From the IMG/VR virus record IMGVR_UViG_3300027773_000204, positions 1 through 50,376 of that record: a stretch of 50,376 nucleotides of DNA. One strand, 5' to 3'. This document shows, piece after piece, positions 33,186 to 46,567 of this stretch (the first letter of the stretch is position 1; each line of letters starts with the position of its first letter). The position numbers were made by a program, and so were the translations under genes. The notes below the pieces were generated by a model. That model saw nothing but the letters and a program-made list of their open reading frames with translations, was not told the DNA's origin and made no database searches. Origin of the DNA: a virus.

Positions 33186-34463
33186 CTAGTTGCACTTGAG
33201 CGTGCGGAACGCTTCGGGAAGCAGCACGCCACCGCCCACGCGCATGCGGGCGATGAAGCCGATCAAGCCGGACTGCGCGTAGAGTTCGTTCAACTGCTGG
33301 ATGTTGAGGGTGATCCTGTCCACGATCATGTAGTTGGAAAAGTCGCCCACCGCAATCGGGTAGTTGCCCGTGCCGATTTCCGACATGTCTGGCATCTCGA
33401 CATAGGGCGTGTCGTAAATCTGGGCGGGCAGGCCACCTGCGGCGAAGGGCTGCCAGAGCGGGCGGTTCTGGCTGTCCTTAAAAAGCCTGATGGTGTTGAG
33501 CGTACCGCGTGTGAAGATGTACGTCGCGTTGGCATCGTAGTCGGCCTTGAGGTCCATCTTGACGTTCAACACATCGTCGGCGTTGATCTTGCCCACTGCC
33601 GCGCCGGAAAGCACATAGGGAATCTGCTGGACGTTGTTGTTTTTGCCAGCAGAGCCGCCCGTGAAGCTGGATGTTGCGGCATTGGGATAGCTCATAATAC
33701 CCTGTGGCTGCCCACTACCAGAGCCATTGATAAACGCCGCGCCCTCAGTTTTCGCGAACTGGAGCATGAGGCGCTGCTTGATGAGGTCTTCCAGGTTGAA
33801 CATGGAGTCTTCCAGGTTCTGCTGGCTAATCCTGAGCAGGCCACGCAACTCATGTACCGGAATGGTGATCATGCCGATGGTCGGGTCTTGCGAGTTGCTG
33901 AAGGACGCCGGCTCAGAGGACCAGTAGGCCGTCGTGTCGTTCTGCAAACTGGGCATCTGGACTTTTTCGCCGGAAGTCGTCTGAGTGCGGCAAATCTTAC
34001 GCATGGGCGAGACAAGCAGCCGATAAGCAATCAATTCGTCCATGAAGTCGGTGCTGGCGAAAAAGCCGCCGGTGGTCGCATCTGCTGCATAGAGAGCTTT
34101 GCGCTCGGCAGGCATGAACTCTTTGACAATGAGTGCCTTTTCCGCAGGTTCGAGCAGGTTAATGTCGCCCCTGGCTTTCATGGCCTTGATAAACGCCTGG
34201 TGTGCTGCGCTGCGCTCTTTCTTGCCACTACTCATCGGCGGGCGGGAGCGGGCAATGCGCTCAGCGTCCACCGCGTCCATCAGTTCGTTGACGCGCTCGT
34301 TGAGGCGGTCAATAATCGTTTTCTGCTCAGTAGGCATGGCCCCGGTTTTCGAGGTCAAATCCTCCTTGATCTTCTTTTGCTCTTTGTCGAGACCATCGAC
34401 GCGGGCGGAAATTTCCTCAGCCAGTGTTTTGATCTCGTCCTGAATATCCGTTAAAGTTGGCAT
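33186..34463 (-). CDS. Major capsid protein, HK97 fold
   Basis: A 425-residue protein. Residues 1-120 form a charged helical scaffolding (delta) domain (IKTLAEEISARVDGLDKEQK), removed on maturation. The boundary is RKALYAADATTGG (121-133), and the mature shell protein begins at about 125. The shell part has typical HK97 elements: an E-loop region (GEKVQMPSLQNDTTAYWSSE), the spine helix (NLEDLIKQRLMLQFAKTEGA), a GSGSGQPQGIM segment and a P-domain ending VGGGVLLPEAFRTLKC. AAAGGATG precedes the ATG. It is preceded by the protease, as is standard. Confidence 0.9.
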   Translation of the reverse strand: MPTLTDIQDEIKTLAEEISARVDGLDKEQKKIKEDLTSKTGAMPTEQKTIIDRLNERVNELMDAVDAERIARSRPPMSSGKKERSAAHQAFIKAMKARGDINLLEPAEKALIVKEFMPAERKALYAADATTGGFFASTDFMDELIAYRLLVSPMRKICRTQTTSGEKVQMPSLQNDTTAYWSSEPASFSNSQDPTIGMITIPVHELRGLLRISQQNLEDSMFNLEDLIKQRLMLQFAKTEGAAFINGSGSGQPQGIMSYPNAATSSFTGGSAGKNNNVQQIPYVLSGAAVGKINADDVLNVKMDLKADYDANATYIFTRGTLNTIRLFKDSQNRPLWQPFAAGGLPAQIYDTPYVEMPDMSEIGTGNYPIAVGDFSNYMIVDRITLNIQQLNELYAQSGLIGFIARMRVGGGVLLPEAFRTLKCN

Positions 34464-34488: not shown

Positions 34489-36294
34489 TTATGATGCACG
34501 TTGGGTCAGTTTCTGGCGGATAGCGCGGAGACTGGACAGGGCAGCATCGATTTCTTCCTCATTCGCGGTATCGCTTTTCTGCGATGGGCGCGGGGAAGTG
34601 GCACGTGTCCCGGCACGGGACGAGGTGCTTGCTTTGCCTTCCTGGTTCGTTCCGGCGTTGCCTGAGTCGGTACCATAGGCTCCCTCTGAGCCTTGAAGGA
34701 TGGTTGCCAGATCGTCGGCGACGTTTTGCACAGACTTCATCTGGCGTTGCACGCTCTTGGTGAGCGAGTCAGCGGCGTCATGCAGGCCGTCTGCGTGGTC
34801 TTGCAGGGCCTGCACATTGGCTGCGCTGAAGGCGCGCCCGGCTTTGAGCGCCTTGCTGTCACCATTTACCATTGAGGAAACGCTGTCGGCCGCGTCGTGC
34901 AGTGCGTCGGCATGGGCCTGAACTTTCTTCATGGCCTTGCTTGCGGCAGTGCGGAGTGAGTCAACATGATCTGAGGTGAAGCCGCCGGTTGTCGCGTCGG
35001 CAGCATAGCTGGCCTTGCGGGCAAGCTCACGTTGGCGGCTCATGTAGTAGTAATAGGGGCGGGCGATGTCATAGCCGTACTGGTCGGCGATTTCCTGCAT
35101 GTAGTTGGAAACATCCAGGTCGATGCCCTTTTGCACATAGGCTTTCAGGGCATCGATGAAGCCCAGCGTGTTGCCGGTATCGTCGCTGCCATCAGCGGTC
35201 CCTTCCAGAATGGTGTTGACCACATCATCCTGTGGTTCGTCGCCGATGCTAAAAATATCAATGACCGACTGCTGCAATGCACACACGAGATTCTGAAAGT
35301 CGGTGTAGAGCCAATCTTTGATCTGCTCAAGTCGGTAGTGGTCGTTGAAGTCTTTGCGCTGCATAGGGCGTCTCCTTGCCTTGCCGTCGTCTTTCCAGGG
35401 CGCGACAATCGAATCGTCGTCAAATTCCTTTGCCATGCGGCTGTAGTAGGTTTCGATTTTGGCTTTCACACCGTCCACGTCGCCCTCTGGAATGTCCGCC
35501 GCCTCCACGCCGTGCGCACCTGCACAGGCGAAAATGGCACGCGGCATCGCTTTGATAGCGCCGCCAACGACATCGCAGAAGAGGAGTTTGTAGGAGGTGA
35601 CATTCTCTGGTGCTGAGTCATCGAACCAGAAATGCACACTCTTCATACCGGCGGTGTCTAAGTTGCCATCGCTATCAGTGAATTGGGCAACAATGCGCCC
35701 ATATGCTGCGTCGTTATCCCAGGTCGTCTTCCGATTGCCGAGCGGCCATGTTGTTTTGCCGGAAGCCCCTTTGCGCTGCATGGCTTTTACTCCCGCGATA
35801 TAGGTGGCGTCATTCATCGGGAACGTGACGGGATCGACCGAGAAGAGGCGCAGTTCTGAGAGGTCGCGCACGCCCGATTTGTCGTATTTCGCCCCGCCTG
35901 CTGGCACATCGTAGATAATGGAGAGATCGTCAATCATGCCCGCCTTTGCCAGCGCGTAGAACTCGCGCCCGCGCTGGGTTGCTAGAGCAATATCGCCCTT
36001 ACAGAGCAGCCCCGTCGCGTCCTCGGTCATGTCATACCAGCCGCCGATCAGCTCATGGTCATCGTGCTGCCAGAGCATTTTGAGGATGTATTTTTTCTCG
36101 CGTGCCTTTGCCCGCGCCTTGCTGTTTTTGATCGTGCGCGTGAACGCGCCGGGCAGGATGCGATCATTACCCTCATCAACATTGTTGAAAATGGCTCCAT
36201 AAGCTTCGATGTGTCCGAACTCTTGCCCACTCTCATCGGTAGTGACGCCTGTGGCTTTGACCTGGAAAGTCAGGCGTTTTGTCTCTCTGCTCAT
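34489..36294 (-). CDS. Prohead maturation protease with long C-terminal extension
   Basis: A 601-residue HK97-family serine protease, about three times the usual length. Residues 1-170 are the protease: the catalytic His lies in WQHDDHELIGGW (His77 or His80) and Ser125 in IDDLSIIYDV. Residues 185-300 form a second domain found in other phage proheads (FACAGAHGVEAADIPEGDVD). The last 300 residues are helical (AHADALHDAADSVSSMVNGD, then AADDL-like heptads) and look like built-in scaffold. At 426-438 the protein has RKASYAADATTGG, almost the same sequence as the capsid cleavage boundary, so it may cut itself. It overlaps the portal stop as ATGA. Confidence 0.85.
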   Translation of the reverse strand: MSRETKRLTFQVKATGVTTDESGQEFGHIEAYGAIFNNVDEGNDRILPGAFTRTIKNSKARAKAREKKYILKMLWQHDDHELIGGWYDMTEDATGLLCKGDIALATQRGREFYALAKAGMIDDLSIIYDVPAGGAKYDKSGVRDLSELRLFSVDPVTFPMNDATYIAGVKAMQRKGASGKTTWPLGNRKTTWDNDAAYGRIVAQFTDSDGNLDTAGMKSVHFWFDDSAPENVTSYKLLFCDVVGGAIKAMPRAIFACAGAHGVEAADIPEGDVDGVKAKIETYYSRMAKEFDDDSIVAPWKDDGKARRRPMQRKDFNDHYRLEQIKDWLYTDFQNLVCALQQSVIDIFSIGDEPQDDVVNTILEGTADGSDDTGNTLGFIDALKAYVQKGIDLDVSNYMQEIADQYGYDIARPYYYYMSRQRELARKASYAADATTGGFTSDHVDSLRTAASKAMKKVQAHADALHDAADSVSSMVNGDSKALKAGRAFSAANVQALQDHADGLHDAADSLTKSVQRQMKSVQNVADDLATILQGSEGAYGTDSGNAGTNQEGKASTSSRAGTRATSPRPSQKSDTANEEEIDAALSSLRAIRQKLTQRAS

Positions 36295-38723
36295 ACCAGC
36301 ACCACCTCCTGCACAAACTTGCGGTAATCCGCCCGCCGGGCGCGCTTCTCTTGCTCATCATCGTCGCTCTCGTCATCAGTGCTGGCAGGTACTTGCACGC
36401 GCTTGAAGAACACCGTGCATCGGCAATTCGCCAACTGAGAGGCAGGTGCGCCCATCGTGTTGTCACCTGGCTGCATCAACTGATAGCCACCCACCTCAAA
36501 CGGCTCGTCCATTGCGACTTCCTGACCGTCAGCATCAGCATGATCGGGCCGCGTGCGACCATCTGCCGTTGCCAGCCAGACTTTGTTGAGCGTCAACCCG
36601 CTCTGCTTTGCGGCCTGCACCGCGCCCCAGTTCGATGCGGCCACAACTTCCGTTCTGGCGATGACGGTACTTCTGTTGGGGATGATCTGTTGCAGGTAGA
36701 GCGTGTCGATGCGCTTTGCAAGCTGGGGGATGGATTCACCGGCGTCTACACCGTCTGCCAGTGCCTGACGCAACAGATCCAGCGTGGTCTGGTTAATCTG
36801 GCTAACCTTTGTCCCGGCAAGCTGAAGCAGATACTGAATGGTCTGCGTATTAAAGAGATTGGCCAGTGTCGTTGTCTTGGTAACATGGCGCGCTCCCTGT
36901 GATTTCAAGTCCTTTGCGATGGCCCCACCCACATCGCTTGCCACGTCCTGATAGAGCTTGACGAGCAGCGAGGTGAGGTCATCGTCCTGGCTGTCTACCG
37001 CCTCTTCCACGAGATTTTCCAGGTGATCCTCGTCAGTTGCGGTCGGTAGGGCCTTGTGCAGCTTCTTGATAACCGCTTCTTTCTCCGTCGTGAAGTAGTC
37101 CTGTAAGCGGCTCTCTGCTTCCTCCTCCCACTTTGTGCGTAGTTCCTCTACCGACGCCAGGTAAGCAGCCTTTTGTTCAGCAGTGGAGAGGTCGAGTGCT
37201 TTCGTAGCACGAGCGGCAGCGTAACGATGAAGAGGATGAGCAGATTTGCCAGAGCCGTTGCTACCGCGATCATTGCCATTTGCATCAGGCTTTGTATTAT
37301 CAGGGCGTGTGTTGGCATCGCTAGTGTTTCCTCCATCAGCGGGTTGCCCCGGCGGGGGATTGTCGAGTTCATTTTCTGGTACCGGTGCAGGTGGCGCGGC
37401 TGGCTTTTGCAGCGATTGTTCGGCGTATTTGTCCAGTTCGTCCTGCTGTACCAACACGGCTCCGAAGCGGAACACGTCGCCGCCTGGCACCGATGGCAAG
37501 TCTTGCAGAGTGCGCGCCTCATTGAGCGTGATGCTGGACGCAGAGCCTGCCGCCCAATTCTGAAAAGCCCGCTGCGCACGCGCCGTCTTCGACGCCTGGA
37601 TGACTTCCTGCACGACTTCTACGGTGGTTTTGTCGTAGTAGAGATAGGCTACGGGTCGTCCGCTGCTATCGCAGAGGTCAGGGTACATGGGAACCAGCCA
37701 CATGTTGAGCAGGTCGTAAAATTCGTCATTCTGCGGAAAAATGGCCTCGGTGTAACTGGCCGCTTTCGCTTCCTTCATGTTGTCGTAGGTGGTGGAACTG
37801 GTATCCCCGATCAACTGAGGCGGCATGTTGAGAATGTTGGCAATGCCTCCGCCGTTATACTTCATCGAGTTGAGCCAGTCCATCTCTGAGGGCGGCAGAC
37901 CCGTTGACTGCCACGACAGCCCGCCGTCCAAGAGGGGCGCTTTGCCCGCGTTCTGATAGCCGGACAATTCCTCTTGCAGCGCCTTTTTGAGTTTTTGCCG
38001 GTCATTGGGTGAGAGAATTTGCGCCAGTATCCACGCGCCGGGCGGCTTTGCCATGTTCTGTAGGAGCGCGAGGTTCCATTTCTTCGCGGCGGTCTGTTGA
38101 TCGATCAGAAGCGCGGCCACCTCGACAGGAGAGAGTCCCCAGAGCGGGTCATCCGGCGCCCACGTCTTGAGATGACCGATATTGCGCGGGTCAATGGGCT
38201 TATCCCTGCCAAACGGCTCGTATTCGTAGTGATCGATACCCCGCGTCGCAGTCGGCACAATCGTAACTTTTTCCGGCTCCAATGTCCACAGTTCATCGGG
38301 CGGACCAGATGCGGCTTTGCGAATGGCGTAGAGAAAGGCGTTGCCCGTGACATTGAAGAAGCCCAAAACCGACTTCCTGAAATAGACGCCGCTCCACTCC
38401 GCATTCGGGCGCGCCAGTTTATCCAGCAGCGGATGGCCGTCAATTGTCTTGCTCATCGTGCGGTCGGTGTAGAGGACAGGCGGGATGGCTGCGCCGTTGG
38501 TGATGAGGTAGTTGACGCATTTGTACAGGGTATCGGATGTGCGATAGCCCTCTTGGGCGTAGGCGCGGTAGTTTCTGGGCATGGAACGCGGCTGGGGGAT
38601 ATCGTTGACAGCGAGGGCGGCAAACATGGGGTTGCTTTTGAGATCAGCAACCTCAATGGAGGGCAGGCGCTGTACCGGCATGCGCGAGATATGCGATTGT
38701 TTGCGATTGCGCCGTCTGCTCAA
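36291..38723 (-). CDS. Portal protein fused to a MuF-type head morphogenesis domain
   Basis: An 810-residue protein with two parts. Residues about 30-430 are an HK97-type portal (YRTSDTLYKCVNYLITNGAA, then LFNVTGNAFLY-like segment and NGGGIANILNMPPQLIGDTS), the ring through which DNA enters the head. A disordered Asn/Asp/Pro linker follows (about 450-510). The C-terminal part (about 515-790) ends in the MuF/SPP1 gp7 domain: VIARTEVVAASNWGAVQAAK, WLATADGRTRPDHADADGQE and ASQLANCRCTVFF. These are usually separate genes. The start is TTG 38723; the AGGAG before it is inside a hairpin. Confidence 0.85.
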   Translation of the reverse strand: MSRRRNRKQSHISRMPVQRLPSIEVADLKSNPMFAALAVNDIPQPRSMPRNYRAYAQEGYRTSDTLYKCVNYLITNGAAIPPVLYTDRTMSKTIDGHPLLDKLARPNAEWSGVYFRKSVLGFFNVTGNAFLYAIRKAASGPPDELWTLEPEKVTIVPTATRGIDHYEYEPFGRDKPIDPRNIGHLKTWAPDDPLWGLSPVEVAALLIDQQTAAKKWNLALLQNMAKPPGAWILAQILSPNDRQKLKKALQEELSGYQNAGKAPLLDGGLSWQSTGLPPSEMDWLNSMKYNGGGIANILNMPPQLIGDTSSTTYDNMKEAKAASYTEAIFPQNDEFYDLLNMWLVPMYPDLCDSSGRPVAYLYYDKTTVEVVQEVIQASKTARAQRAFQNWAAGSASSITLNEARTLQDLPSVPGGDVFRFGAVLVQQDELDKYAEQSLQKPAAPPAPVPENELDNPPPGQPADGGNTSDANTRPDNTKPDANGNDRGSNGSGKSAHPLHRYAAARATKALDLSTAEQKAAYLASVEELRTKWEEEAESRLQDYFTTEKEAVIKKLHKALPTATDEDHLENLVEEAVDSQDDDLTSLLVKLYQDVASDVGGAIAKDLKSQGARHVTKTTTLANLFNTQTIQYLLQLAGTKVSQINQTTLDLLRQALADGVDAGESIPQLAKRIDTLYLQQIIPNRSTVIARTEVVAASNWGAVQAAKQSGLTLNKVWLATADGRTRPDHADADGQEVAMDEPFEVGGYQLMQPGDNTMGAPASQLANCRCTVFFKRVQVPASTDDESDDDEQEKRARRADYRKFVQEVVLV

Positions 38724-39936: not shown

Positions 39937-41527
39937 TCCAGCCTCCATGACTTTCAAACCACTCGAAGGGGTCAATTTTTTGGATCTCCGCAATCGTGGG
40001 CGGCTTCGTCTTCTCTTGCGGCTCGACGCCTTGAAGCGGTAGAGCAGGTACGCACACTTCTTCAGCGGCCATTGAATGATTATCCACCTGATCATCATGC
40101 GCGCCTTTTGGAAAGGTCAGATGCTCCGCTTCCCAGTCCGGCAGCCACGACGCGCCCGCCAGGAAATACGTTTTGCCGTTCTCGCTCCACACACTGGCAG
40201 TCGCGGCCCGGCTCACTTTGTCCTTCACCGGCTTGTACTCGCGGCACGGTATCCCCTGCGCCAGTGCCTGCTGAAAGAAGGCAAGCTGATACGCGACCGT
40301 CTCGACTTTCCAGTAGCCAGGACGAAAACGAGCGTGCAGGCTCTGAAGCATCCTGAGCTGCGCAGCATTATCCAGATGGTCACGCGCCACAAAGCGCAAG
40401 AGCAGATCGCTGTCGGGAGTGACCACCCACACGGCAAACACGGTGTAGTCCGCTTCCTGCTTGCTACTGATTGCCAGGTCCAGCGTGCCGAATTCAGAGC
40501 AGGCGCTCTTGAGGATTGACTTGTTGCCCTGGGGGGCGTGCAGGACATATGCCTCTTCTGTCTCGCTGAAATAACGGAACCAGTCCTGGCGAAACATGCC
40601 GCCAGTGGAAGGCACGGGCGACTGCTGGTACTGCGCAGCGTAGCCCAGGTTTCCCAGGTCACGCTTGAGACCGTCAAGCGCCGCCTGGTCGAATCGATCT
40701 TTCCAGAGCAATTCTCCCTCTTCTGTGCGCGGGTCGGTTCCCTTCCACACCTTGCCCATAACGGGCGTGTAGCAGCGCCGCGACGGCTCAAACTCGGAGG
40801 GCAAGATCAGGCCAATCCAGTCTTTGCGCTCTCGCAGGATGTAGCCACACACATCATTTTCATGGATGCGCTGTCCGACCGTAAGCATTCGCCCCGTTGC
40901 CTGATTATTGAGGCGGTTGCTCCATACCTCGCGAAACCAGATCAGCGCCGCCTCACGATCAGCTTCTGAATACGCCTCGCTGGCATTATGCGGATCGTCG
41001 ATGAGCAGATAGTCACCGCCCTGACCGGTCGTTGTCCCGCCGATACTCGTGGCAATCTGGTAGCCCCGGCAGTCGTTCTCGAAGAAGCTCTTGACGTTCT
41101 GATCTCCGGCCAACTTGAAGACATCGGCATAGCGCGCCTGAAACCACTCTGATTCGATGAGGACACGCTTACGGCGGTTGTCTCTGATAGAGAGTGACAG
41201 GCTATAGCTTGCTGAGAGAAACCGCCACTCAGGAGAGTGCAGCCAGGCCCAGACCGGCATAGCAACGGAACAGAGCGTCGATTTGAGCGTGCGCGGTTGG
41301 ATGTTGATGACCAGGCGCGTGATGTCTCCATGTACCAGCGCCTCTAAATGCTCACAGAGGGCGTCAATCACCCATCCATCGACAAATTCAGTTCCCGGCT
41401 CCAACACATGCCAGCAGCCCATCAGAAATTGCTTGAGTGACCGGCGGCATACCTCGCCATCGGCCCAGGCCCAGGCTTGCTCAGGCGTTTCAGGTGTTTT
41501 CGGTTGTGCTGGCTGCACACTACTCAC
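39929..41527 (-). CDS. Terminase large subunit
   Basis: The DNA-packaging motor, 532 residues from GTG 41527, which overlaps the previous stop as GTGA; an ATG-like longer start at 41581 overlaps that gene. The ATPase half has a Walker A variant INIQPRTLKST (about 75-84) and Walker B YLLIDDPH (173-180). The nuclease half has FGTLDLAISSKQEADYTVFA with a catalytic Asp and ends with KGAHDDQVDN. The layout is that of Terminase_6-type large subunits. It is followed by the Com-like gene and the portal module. Confidence 0.9.
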   Translation of the reverse strand: MSSVQPAQPKTPETPEQAWAWADGEVCRRSLKQFLMGCWHVLEPGTEFVDGWVIDALCEHLEALVHGDITRLVINIQPRTLKSTLCSVAMPVWAWLHSPEWRFLSASYSLSLSIRDNRRKRVLIESEWFQARYADVFKLAGDQNVKSFFENDCRGYQIATSIGGTTTGQGGDYLLIDDPHNASEAYSEADREAALIWFREVWSNRLNNQATGRMLTVGQRIHENDVCGYILRERKDWIGLILPSEFEPSRRCYTPVMGKVWKGTDPRTEEGELLWKDRFDQAALDGLKRDLGNLGYAAQYQQSPVPSTGGMFRQDWFRYFSETEEAYVLHAPQGNKSILKSACSEFGTLDLAISSKQEADYTVFAVWVVTPDSDLLLRFVARDHLDNAAQLRMLQSLHARFRPGYWKVETVAYQLAFFQQALAQGIPCREYKPVKDKVSRAATASVWSENGKTYFLAGASWLPDWEAEHLTFPKGAHDDQVDNHSMAAEEVCVPALPLQGVEPQEKTKPPTIAEIQKIDPFEWFESHGGWND

Positions 41528-42084
41528 ACGCTCTCTCCATGTAGACACTCGATATGAAACGGCTCGCCGACGCCGCGACAAAAGTGTGACGCCGCCTCTA
41601 ACGCCAACTCTATACGCTTCTGAGGGATAAGCGACATAGAGTGCGTGGCAAAGAGCGCGCCGAGGGCTTCAACGCGATTGGCAGTGGCAATGAGGTGGCC
41701 CTCGGCCACCTCCGTTAAACTGTAGTCTGACGAGACGGTGAACAGACGGCCCCGATAGCCGATCAAGAAATAGCCCGGCGTACTCTCCTGCTCATTCTGT
41801 TTGTAGGCATTGCCTTTGTCCTTCAGGACGTTGCGCAACTCATCGACAAAGAGGGTAGAGAAATAGCATTCGATGCTCATATCAGCGGGATGCTCCGGCG
41901 GGGTGAAGGCATATTGCAGCAATTGCAGCATACGTACCGAGCCGCTATAGCCGATCAGGAAGTCACCCTGTCGAAATACTTTGCTAAAGGCCAGTGTCTG
42001 TTCCACATAGCCAGTGGACGCGCAACTATCACCACCGATATAGACATTTCCACTCTCATCAACCAGGCCAACAATACAGGTCAT
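41524..42084 (-). CDS. Proteasome-beta/HslV-like Ntn hydrolase
   Basis: A 186-residue protein from ATG 42084 (ATGA overlap with the previous gene). It begins MTCIVGLVDESGNVYIGGDS; Met removal would expose Thr as the N-terminal nucleophile. Counting that Thr as 1, Asp18 (in GGDS) and Lys34 (in FSKVFR) fall where proteasome beta subunits have Asp17 and Lys33, followed by LIGYSGSVRM in place of the S/G substrate strand. Such genes occur in phages but their task is unknown: proteolysis in head assembly, host protein degradation or a structural role. It is coupled directly to the terminase. Confidence 0.75.
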   Translation of the reverse strand: MTCIVGLVDESGNVYIGGDSCASTGYVEQTLAFSKVFRQGDFLIGYSGSVRMLQLLQYAFTPPEHPADMSIECYFSTLFVDELRNVLKDKGNAYKQNEQESTPGYFLIGYRGRLFTVSSDYSLTEVAEGHLIATANRVEALGALFATHSMSLIPQKRIELALEAASHFCRGVGEPFHIECLHGESV

Positions 42085-42404
42085 GAAACTACTCCTAACC
42101 GTGCTTTGATCGCCGCGTTCACTCGCGCCTGGTGTTGCCGATACGTGCGCTTGCGGGCGTACAGGCGACGCAACTGCACTTTGCGGAGTTTGCGCGTAGG
42201 GTCTGGGAAGAGATGGAAGCGTTTCAGGGAGTCGTAAGTTTCTGAAGAAAAGCACCAGACGACATCTGGGTCATACTGAGCTTTGATCTTCTTAATCAAT
42301 TCTTCCACAGAAGCGGGTGGCTTCCTGCCCTTCAATGGCACATCGTTAAAATATTCACCCAAATCAACCGGCGTATCCAGGTCACTCACCTTGATTATGT
42401 CCAT
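42081..42404 (-). CDS. Hypothetical basic protein upstream of the Ntn hydrolase
   Basis: A 107-residue product with GAGGAGG before its ATG. N-terminal segment VSDLDTPVDLGEYFNDVP, then a helix (SVEELIKKIKAQYDPDVVWC) and a very basic C-terminal part (KLRKVQLRRLYARKRTYRQH). It overlaps the Ntn hydrolase start as ATGA and could be its partner or a DNA/RNA-binding protein. No family recognised. Confidence 0.5.
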   Translation of the reverse strand: MDIIKVSDLDTPVDLGEYFNDVPLKGRKPPASVEELIKKIKAQYDPDVVWCFSSETYDSLKRFHLFPDPTRKLRKVQLRRLYARKRTYRQHQARVNAAIKARLGVVS

Positions 42405-43144: not shown

Positions 43145-43372
43145 TCACTGCTCTTGCTCCTTTGCCAACTGCTCCAATTCATCCTTGCGCTCGTAGAGAT
43201 AGGCCAAGAGCGAGAGGGCTTGACGTGGGTTGAAGAAGATATGGTAGACGGTCAGGTTCATGCCCATTGCGGAGAGATGCACGCCGTCATGCAGCACACA
43301 CTCCGCATGGCCTTCCTCATGAATAGGAAGCGCGTCCAGTTTCCCATCGTGCTTGTACCCAACTTCGCTCAT
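43145..43372 (-). CDS. Hypothetical protein coupled to TerS
   Basis: A 75-residue product overlapping the TerS stop as ATGA. Strand-rich first half (EEGHAECVLHDGVHLSAMGM) and a C-terminal helix (RQALSLLAYLYERKDELEQL). Small genes next to TerS often have no known function; this one shows no diagnostic motif. Confidence 0.5.
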   Translation of the reverse strand: MSEVGYKHDGKLDALPIHEEGHAECVLHDGVHLSAMGMNLTVYHIFFNPRQALSLLAYLYERKDELEQLAKEQEQ

Positions 43373-44058
43373 GTACCTTGCCTCGCTTTTGCGTTTGCCA
43401 GCAGCGCACGCACTTTTGCCAACTCCTCATCAGTGAGTGCGCGTAGATCGTCTTTGGTGAGGGTGAGCGCGCCGGAAACGTGCGTGTTGACGTTGGCGTT
43501 GACATCAACTGTGGATTTGTCGCGGTACTCTGGCATGAGCATCTTGGCATGGAAGATCAGCAGCGTGTCGCTGTACTTGCGCACAGTTCCGGCATACTGG
43601 CCGAACTGGTACACCGGCTCGTCCCATCCCTCTTTGGCGCGGCGGAAGATTTCGGCGCGCAGGGTGTCACGGGCGTCTTCTTTGGCGAGGTTGAACGCAA
43701 AAGCAAAATCTTCATCATGCTCTTGCCAGTCGTAGACGGTGGAACGGTGGATACCGGCGGCTTCTGCCGAAAGCTTGATGTTGGCATGCACGGCGTAGGC
43801 GTCGAGGAAGAGGCGCTGGCGATCTTTGGTGGACAGTCCTTCTTTTTGTGGTGTCGGATTCTCGTTAGCTACCGGACGGACAGGGGGCGATGTCCGCGTC
43901 TCTGTCCGGCTCTTTGTCCGCGCCGGGCCATCCCACTGCTCTTTGTGCTTGCGCTCACCAATGACCGATTTCGAGACGCCATACTTCGCCTGCAGCGCGC
44001 GCAGCGACAGGCCCGCTTCGTAATCCGCTCGTATCGCCGTCCAGTTGGTGTCACTCAC
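43369..44058 (-). CDS. Terminase small subunit
   Basis: A 229-residue DNA-recognition subunit of the packaging motor. It starts at GTG 44058. Two helix-turn-helix segments are visible: AIRADYEAGLSLRALQAKYGVSKS (7-30) and KLSAEAAGIHRSTVYDWQEH (about 95-114). An oligomerisation region follows (DTLRAEIFRRAKEGWDEPVY, then KYSDTLLIFHAKMLMPEYRD), and a helical tail. The PEYRDK segment is typical of the family. TerL lies five genes downstream, further apart than usual. A terminator lies just upstream, so transcription must read through it or start from a promoter I cannot see. Confidence 0.75.
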   Translation of the reverse strand: MSDTNWTAIRADYEAGLSLRALQAKYGVSKSVIGERKHKEQWDGPARTKSRTETRTSPPVRPVANENPTPQKEGLSTKDRQRLFLDAYAVHANIKLSAEAAGIHRSTVYDWQEHDEDFAFAFNLAKEDARDTLRAEIFRRAKEGWDEPVYQFGQYAGTVRKYSDTLLIFHAKMLMPEYRDKSTVDVNANVNTHVSGALTLTKDDLRALTDEELAKVRALLANAKARQGT

Positions 44059-45618: not shown

Positions 45619-46542
45619 CTACGACACCTTGCGTTGCTGCTCAATTTTTGTGAGATGACCATTGACCTTACCAATGAGCGCAATAGTCACATCCTCATCA
45701 TGTAGCGTCTCACCCGTCGCCTCTTGCAGGACAGATTCCCACTCTTCCTTCGTAGAGGCAAGGCCGAGGGCAAAAGCACGGCTCTTTGCGCGCTGCAAGA
45801 GTTGCGCAAGGCCACTGCTTTGCGCAGGTTTCGCAGACTCAGCAGCAGGGGCAGGTGCGCCAGAAAGCCAGGACTTGAGCGTGTCCATGACCTTGCCGTC
45901 TGGCTTTGCGATTATCACACCTGAAAGCGCAGGGCAGCGCGACTTCTGCACGATGGCCGTATTATCCAAATCCATGTCCACCACCACGTCAAATTCGTAC
46001 TCCATGCCATCGCGCTGGATCGGGGCCATGCCAACCTTCTTCGGGGCAGATTTGCCATTCTTCTCTTCCATGATGTACTCCTGTTTGGAGCGCATCGTCA
46101 CAATAATGTGCAGTGGCGAGCCGGTGAGGGCGTCGATCAGCGCGTTTTGTAGCGGCGTCGCATCCTTCCAGGCGGCAAAGCTATTGCCCTGGTACTTGCG
46201 CTTTGCGATGCTGTCCACGAGGTCAAGCAGGCCACCTGTGCCATTCCAGGCATGCGAGAGGCTGTCAATGACGAGAACGCTATACCCCCCCTGCTCAGCG
46301 TCTTTAATGCCCTGGATGAAGTTGTTGGGATGGAAGCTGTCCAATTCCAACACATCAAATTCAGGGAAGATATCCGCATACTTGCTGGCAGAGCCACGTT
46401 CGGTATCGATGAGGGCCACTGTACCGCCATTAGCGAGTGCATGCGCCCAGGTCAGGGCTGTCCATGTCTTGCCGCTTCCGGCAGGGCCTGCAATCGCTAC
46501 GCGGGCCTTTGCCTCGTGCTTTACCGCTTTCTTGAATGTCAT
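45619..46542 (-). CDS. Sak4-like RecA-fold recombination ATPase
   Basis: A 307-residue protein with a Walker A AIAGPAGSGKTWTAL (16-30), Walker B VLVIDSLSHAW (89-99) and later strands (HIIVTMRSKQEYIME, then FDVVVDMD), the layout of phage Sak4/AAA_24 proteins. These share the RecA core and promote strand annealing or exchange in phage recombination. The C-terminal 80 residues form a linker and helical domain (LAQLLQRAKSRAFALGLAST) probably used for protein contacts. I use ATG 46542, with GAGAGGAAAAG upstream, rather than 46557. No Erf, RecT or SSB gene is seen nearby. Confidence 0.75.
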   Translation of the reverse strand: MTFKKAVKHEAKARVAIAGPAGSGKTWTALTWAHALANGGTVALIDTERGSASKYADIFPEFDVLELDSFHPNNFIQGIKDAEQGGYSVLVIDSLSHAWNGTGGLLDLVDSIAKRKYQGNSFAAWKDATPLQNALIDALTGSPLHIIVTMRSKQEYIMEEKNGKSAPKKVGMAPIQRDGMEYEFDVVVDMDLDNTAIVQKSRCPALSGVIIAKPDGKVMDTLKSWLSGAPAPAAESAKPAQSSGLAQLLQRAKSRAFALGLASTKEEWESVLQEATGETLHDEDVTIALIGKVNGHLTKIEQQRKVS

Positions 46543-46567
46543 AGCTTTTCCTCTCATTCATAAGAAC

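Follow-up and report, generated by a model that had tools for sequence, protein, structure and literature searches.

The window analysed here, the whole 50,376-nucleotide stretch of IMG/VR virus record IMGVR_UViG_3300027773_000204, carries a gene for a proteasome-like Ntn hydrolase directly upstream of the gene for the terminase large subunit (TerL), on the same strand as the small terminase subunit, portal, head maturation protease and major head protein genes (Table 1). The hydrolase ORF has an ATG start, and its protein reads MTCIVGLVDESGNVYIGGDS...KVF.... At its 5′ end the ATG overlaps the stop codon of a basic ORF in the tetranucleotide ATGA (42081-42084), with the ribosome-binding site AGGAGT (42091-42096) lying six bases 5′ of this overlap. 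At its 3′ end the stop codon overlaps the GTG of TerL in GTGA (41524-41527), with GGAGAGAG upstream. Purine-rich ribosome-binding sites, as read from the sequence, precede both the hydrolase and the TerL starts, and the GTG at 41527 is the best start for TerL. Overlaps on both sides bear out the translational coupling to TerL and to a basic protein that had been proposed in a sequence-only reading of this DNA. The interval given there for the hydrolase (41524-42404) does hold the gene and has to be narrowed, as it also takes in the upstream basic 107-aa ORF.

Table 1. Features of the window at and around the hydrolase gene.
Feature	Position	Strand	Basis
Terminase small subunit	43369..44058	-	phrog_4044 E 4.4e-39
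Basic 107-aa ORF, orphan; stop overlaps hydrolase start (ATGA)	42081..42404	-	no relatives found
Proteasome-like Ntn hydrolase, AAH-type, 186 aa	41524..42084	-	PHROG 1040 E 2.7e-19; AF2 pLDDT 94.7; BPH/HslV fold
Thr1 codon (residue 2), nucleophile, N-terminal once Met is removed	42079..42081	-	Thr 151/152, Ser 1
Asp18 codon (residue 19)	42028..42030	-	153/153
Lys34 codon (residue 35)	41980..41982	-	153/153
T-A-N, residues 134-136 (family G-[C/S]-G), proteasome Ser129 region	41677..41685	-	family alignment
Terminase large subunit (TerL), GTG start at 41527, 532 aa	39929..41527	-	phrog_38 E 1.5e-86; Terminase_6C; start read from sequence
Portal protein fused to Mu-F-like head morphogenesis domain	36291..38723	-	PF04860 E 9e-54; PF04233 E 1e-16
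Head maturation protease (N-terminal 175 residues) with long C-terminal extension	34489..36294	-	phrog_80 E 5e-38
Major head protein (MCP), HK97-like	33186..34463	-	phrog_10 E 1e-65

The basic ORF is coupled to the hydrolase through the ATGA overlap and is not a conserved partner of it: a search for relatives detected none, and its single-sequence structure model, with a pLDDT of 39.9, was uninformative. ORFs that overlap the hydrolase gene by 4 bases on its upstream side on Rhizobium etli and Paraburkholderia plasmids were considered as relatives and dropped, as they show no resemblance.

The hydrolase exists besides the prohead protease, as had been proposed; the latter is a separate gene of a different family (phrog_80) in the same cluster. 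Since the window and many other loci carry both, replacement of the prohead protease by the hydrolase was ruled out. The HK97-like MCP, too, recurs at many of the other loci. Of the 601 aa encoded by the head maturation protease ORF, only the first 175 match protease families, and the C-terminal 425 residues are without assignment. A RecA-like ATPase encoded at 45619-46557 belongs to PHROG 1366 and weakly matches Sak4-like annealing proteins.

Identity and fold of the hydrolase

The window protein matched PHROG 1040 ('peptidase HslV family') with an E-value of 2.7e-19. Relatives were found by tblastn in 203 phage records and were present in 399 IMG/VR stretches, so that the observation is far beyond chance. 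Used alone, the protein gave nothing significant against Pfam and NCBIfam, including their curated HslV model, no hit in PDB by phmmer, no match to known prohead protease families and no relative when IMG/VR was scanned with it as a single sequence. A profile of 96 relatives, compared with PDB, identified BPH (E 3e-6) and also HslV. The AlphaFold (AF2) model (pLDDT 94.7, pTM 0.90) is an Ntn sandwich with helices at residues 50-59 (H1), 71-89 (H2), 137-147 and 154-168. Foldseek searches with this model returned BPH 5ovs at the top (E 6.7e-13, TM 0.81) and HslV next (TM about 0.7), and BPH, HslV and proteasome beta subunits were all retrieved with probability 1.00. Model and structure search thus agree on the Ntn fold that had been proposed, and the evidence for a proteasome-like Ntn hydrolase of a known family is strong.

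Fuchs, Alva and Lupas (2021; PMC8665760) reported 22 new proteasome homologue families with no genomic context hinting at function, and described AAH and PPH as of unknown function, with 'no genomic contexts'. Since the family is already known, both there and as PHROG 1040, the occurrence of a proteasome homologue in a phage has a precedent. We place the window protein with AAH on the basis of its length, helix H2 and taxonomic spread. Both H1 and H2 are present in the model of 186 aa, the nearest solved relatives are BPH and HslV, consistent with group I similarity, and relatives occur in alphaproteobacteria, Actinobacteria and phages. The likeness extends to helices H1-H4, the lack of a propeptide, the Thr1/Asp/Lys arrangement and occurrence in phages, and AAH bacterial relatives include Rhizobium, Azospirillum, Streptomyces and Frankia. 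Assignment to PPH is disfavoured by length and H2, PPH proteins lacking H2 and having about 140 residues.

BPH (PDB 5ovs, 5ovu), which is about 22% identical to the window protein, is the closest solved fold; it forms a double heptameric ring and has no known unfoldase. HslV has the fold and the triad in common with the window protein and partners an unfoldase, HslU, for which the window ORFs scanned gave no match. Connectase, a proteasome homologue that ligates (PMC8665760), raises the idea that the hydrolase is a protein ligase or transpeptidase with sequence specificity and a head protein as its substrate. We regard this as very improbable, because connectase lacks H1-H2 and its active site is covered by an insertion of two helices, whereas the window model has H1-H4 and no such insertion.

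Active site of the window protein and its relatives

Conservation was assessed on an alignment of 153 non-identical relatives. Thr1 is present in all but one of the 152 sequences that cover this position, the exception having Ser, and Asp18, Lys34 and Gly45 are invariant. The window protein keeps all of these as well as Ser49, with Thr1, Asp18 and Lys34 at the positions proposed from the sequence after Met removal, and the relatives retain the triad. Neither of the two refuting conditions named in the sequence-only reading, a structure lacking the Ntn fold and relatives that do not keep Thr1 or Lys34, was therefore borne out. The aligned sequences begin at Met-Thr; therefore no propeptide is needed, again as proposed.

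The further claim that this arrangement matches active proteasome and HslV subunits holds for the triad and fails at the G-[C/S]-G motif, which reads T-A-N in the window protein and by alignment corresponds to the Ser129 site of the proteasome. The first glycine (G134) is found in 152/153 sequences and the last (G136) in 150/153, and the window protein is the only sequence in which both are changed; in the other 152 relatives the motif is intact bar single changes. The Ser129-equivalent position (window residue 135) is Cys in 123/153 sequences, those of L052 and L077 among them, and Ser in 24/153, so that AAH proteins mostly have a cysteine near Thr1. The motif is common in proteasome-like Ntn hydrolases and is not a membership criterion in PMC8665760. 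Neither of the other two reading frames gives G-S-G, and we therefore rejected a frameshift artefact and consider T-A-N a real substitution.

For the 20S proteasome, Ser129 and Asp166 are described as part of a second triad on which efficient proteolysis depends (PMC4792962). Loss of G-[C/S]-G makes the activity of the window protein itself uncertain, and to judge from its sequence full activity in this phage is doubtful. The protein could be a degenerate member of the family, weakly active or inactive, that binds and does not cut. T-A-N occurs in just one of the 153 sequences, and it is accompanied by five further changes at positions at least 90% conserved; altogether the protein differs at 7/40 positions 90% conserved, against a family median of 1, with some large-phage members differing more. 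With Thr1, Asp18, Lys34, Gly45 and Ser49 all kept and the model confident, we nevertheless consider degeneracy improbable.

Genomic context in phages and bacteria

PHROG 1040, by profile the same phage protein family, comprises T5-like, Vibrio, Aeromonas, Geobacillus and Moorella phages, and in these isolates the gene is not beside TerL. Among cultured phages it lies with nucleotide-metabolism or early genes (Moorella MTATph1, Geobacillus E3 and T5-like Salmonella, Vibrio, Aeromonas and Ochrobactrum phages), and none of those whose neighbourhood was read has it in the head module. IMG/VR head modules, on the other hand, hold the gene in several slots (TerS-hydrolase-TerL, TerL-hydrolase-portal, portal-hydrolase-protease), frequently at -8 to +30 bases from its neighbours and often with overlaps of 1-8 bases.

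Where a TerL or portal gene was detected in contigs below 80 kb, the hydrolase gene was less than 3 kb away in 17/23 cases, all 17 on the same strand, compared with 5.2 expected under uniform placement; in phages above 100 kb the association was mostly gone, and jumbo and T5-like phages do not show it. Devosia, Pelosinus and Metabacillus loci (L111, L155, L162) have the gene 0.03-0.7 kb from TerL. Of the non-redundant metagenomic virus loci, 32/63 had TerL or portal on the strand of the hydrolase gene and less than 3 kb from it. By the same criterion, the two controls, relatives of other window genes gathered in the same way, scored 1/48 (Sak4-like ATPase; Fisher p 3e-9) and 5/54 (DNA methyltransferase; p 1e-6). 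Some bias remains in these comparisons, because the HMMs that label TerL and portal started out from hydrolase loci and so favour detection at these; all loci were included when the HMMs were rebuilt. Five or more families are represented among the TerLs beside the hydrolase. A tree of 113 members requires no fewer than 24 switches of head context, compared with an average of 34 when shuffled, which argues for inheritance together with gain or loss on repeated occasions. In ct2KA10, even a distant relative lies directly after a portal-like ORF and downstream of a TerL-like ORF, both read from sequence. The TerL neighbourhood stressed in the sequence-only reading is thus a recurrent context and not a universal one, large cultured phages having the gene elsewhere. 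A literature search on phage proteasome homologues beside the terminase found nothing on context; the signal beside head genes is not mentioned in the literature examined and is new here.

In some phages the hydrolase gene is tandem or adjoins a second annotated hydrolase gene (locus L084, 4698-5812; Aeromonas phage 2L372X; Vibrio phage R16F). Both copies at L084 keep Thr1, Asp and Lys, and such tandem hydrolases could form mixed rings. The 2021 survey reported no actinobacterial phage with AAH (PMC8665760). One IMG/VR contig of 63.8 kb (L070) carries an AAH gene resembling those of Streptomyces, with a portal gene 1.1 kb downstream of it, and on the tree the AAH gene is sister to the Streptomyces mashuensis copy.

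Many bacteria carry an AAH gene outside prophages. At four Sinorhizobium/Ensifer loci it lies within the nif cluster, with nifQ on one side and iscA-nifU-nifS-nifV-nifW-fixA on the other; we know of no proteasome homologue with a role in nitrogen fixation. In most Azospirillum genomes it occupies a conserved chromosomal neighbourhood, with neighbours that we take, from our own reading of the sequences, to resemble cysS, gltX and NAD synthetase. Four Rhizobium loci have a frame that ends after 38 codons, although blastp gives two pieces, indicating either broken genes or a frameshift.

A possible role in head assembly

Our preferred reading, to which we give close to an even chance, is that the hydrolase is an AAH-type, propeptide-less peptidase co-expressed with the head genes and processing or clearing proteins during head assembly. 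As a group I, N-terminal-threonine enzyme it would use Thr1, Asp18 and Lys34 once Met is removed. It would be translated from a presumably shared TerS...TerL-portal-protease-MCP transcript and so would be made when heads are built. Like BPH it would most likely assemble as a ring-shaped, ATP-independent, self-compartmentalising peptidase. It may then trim or clear proteins in head assembly and packaging, candidate targets being scaffold or delta-domain peptides and surplus or misfolded head proteins. Identity is strongly supported, while role is inferred.

Against a head role stand the missing G-[C/S]-G motif of the window protein, the detection bias of the labelling HMMs, the large phages that place the gene away from head genes and the many bacterial copies outside prophages. 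The large phages and the bacterial copies fit an accessory, moron-like protease that rides on a strong late transcript, with the head operon as its landing site and host defence, stress or metabolism proteins as its targets. The slot varies between phages, the large phages have the gene among nucleotide-metabolism genes, and the bacterial copies include those beside nif genes in Sinorhizobium. Such a strong preference for TerL or portal would however be unexpected for an accessory gene, the two control genes show no preference of this strength, and the overlaps of a few bases with the neighbours resemble those within a coupled operon. Given the varying slots and the different placement in large phages, the accessory protease stays a serious rival, although probably not the correct explanation.

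Returning to the head-assembly peptidase, the window protein differs from described AAH proteins in its loss of G-[C/S]-G, and the phage copies examined here differ in recurring in head modules. This recurrent placement, with at least five terminase lineages and in several slots, is the first testable hint at AAH function. It is conceivable, if on balance unlikely, that AAH homologues in unrelated tailed phages carry out a dedicated second round of proteolysis during head assembly or packaging, in addition to that by the prohead protease. If so, AAH would gain its first function, and virion morphogenesis its first proteasome relative. Many environmental phages would then have a second head-morphogenesis peptidase, overlooked by isolate-based work on model phages because no cultured phage read here has the hydrolase in that position.
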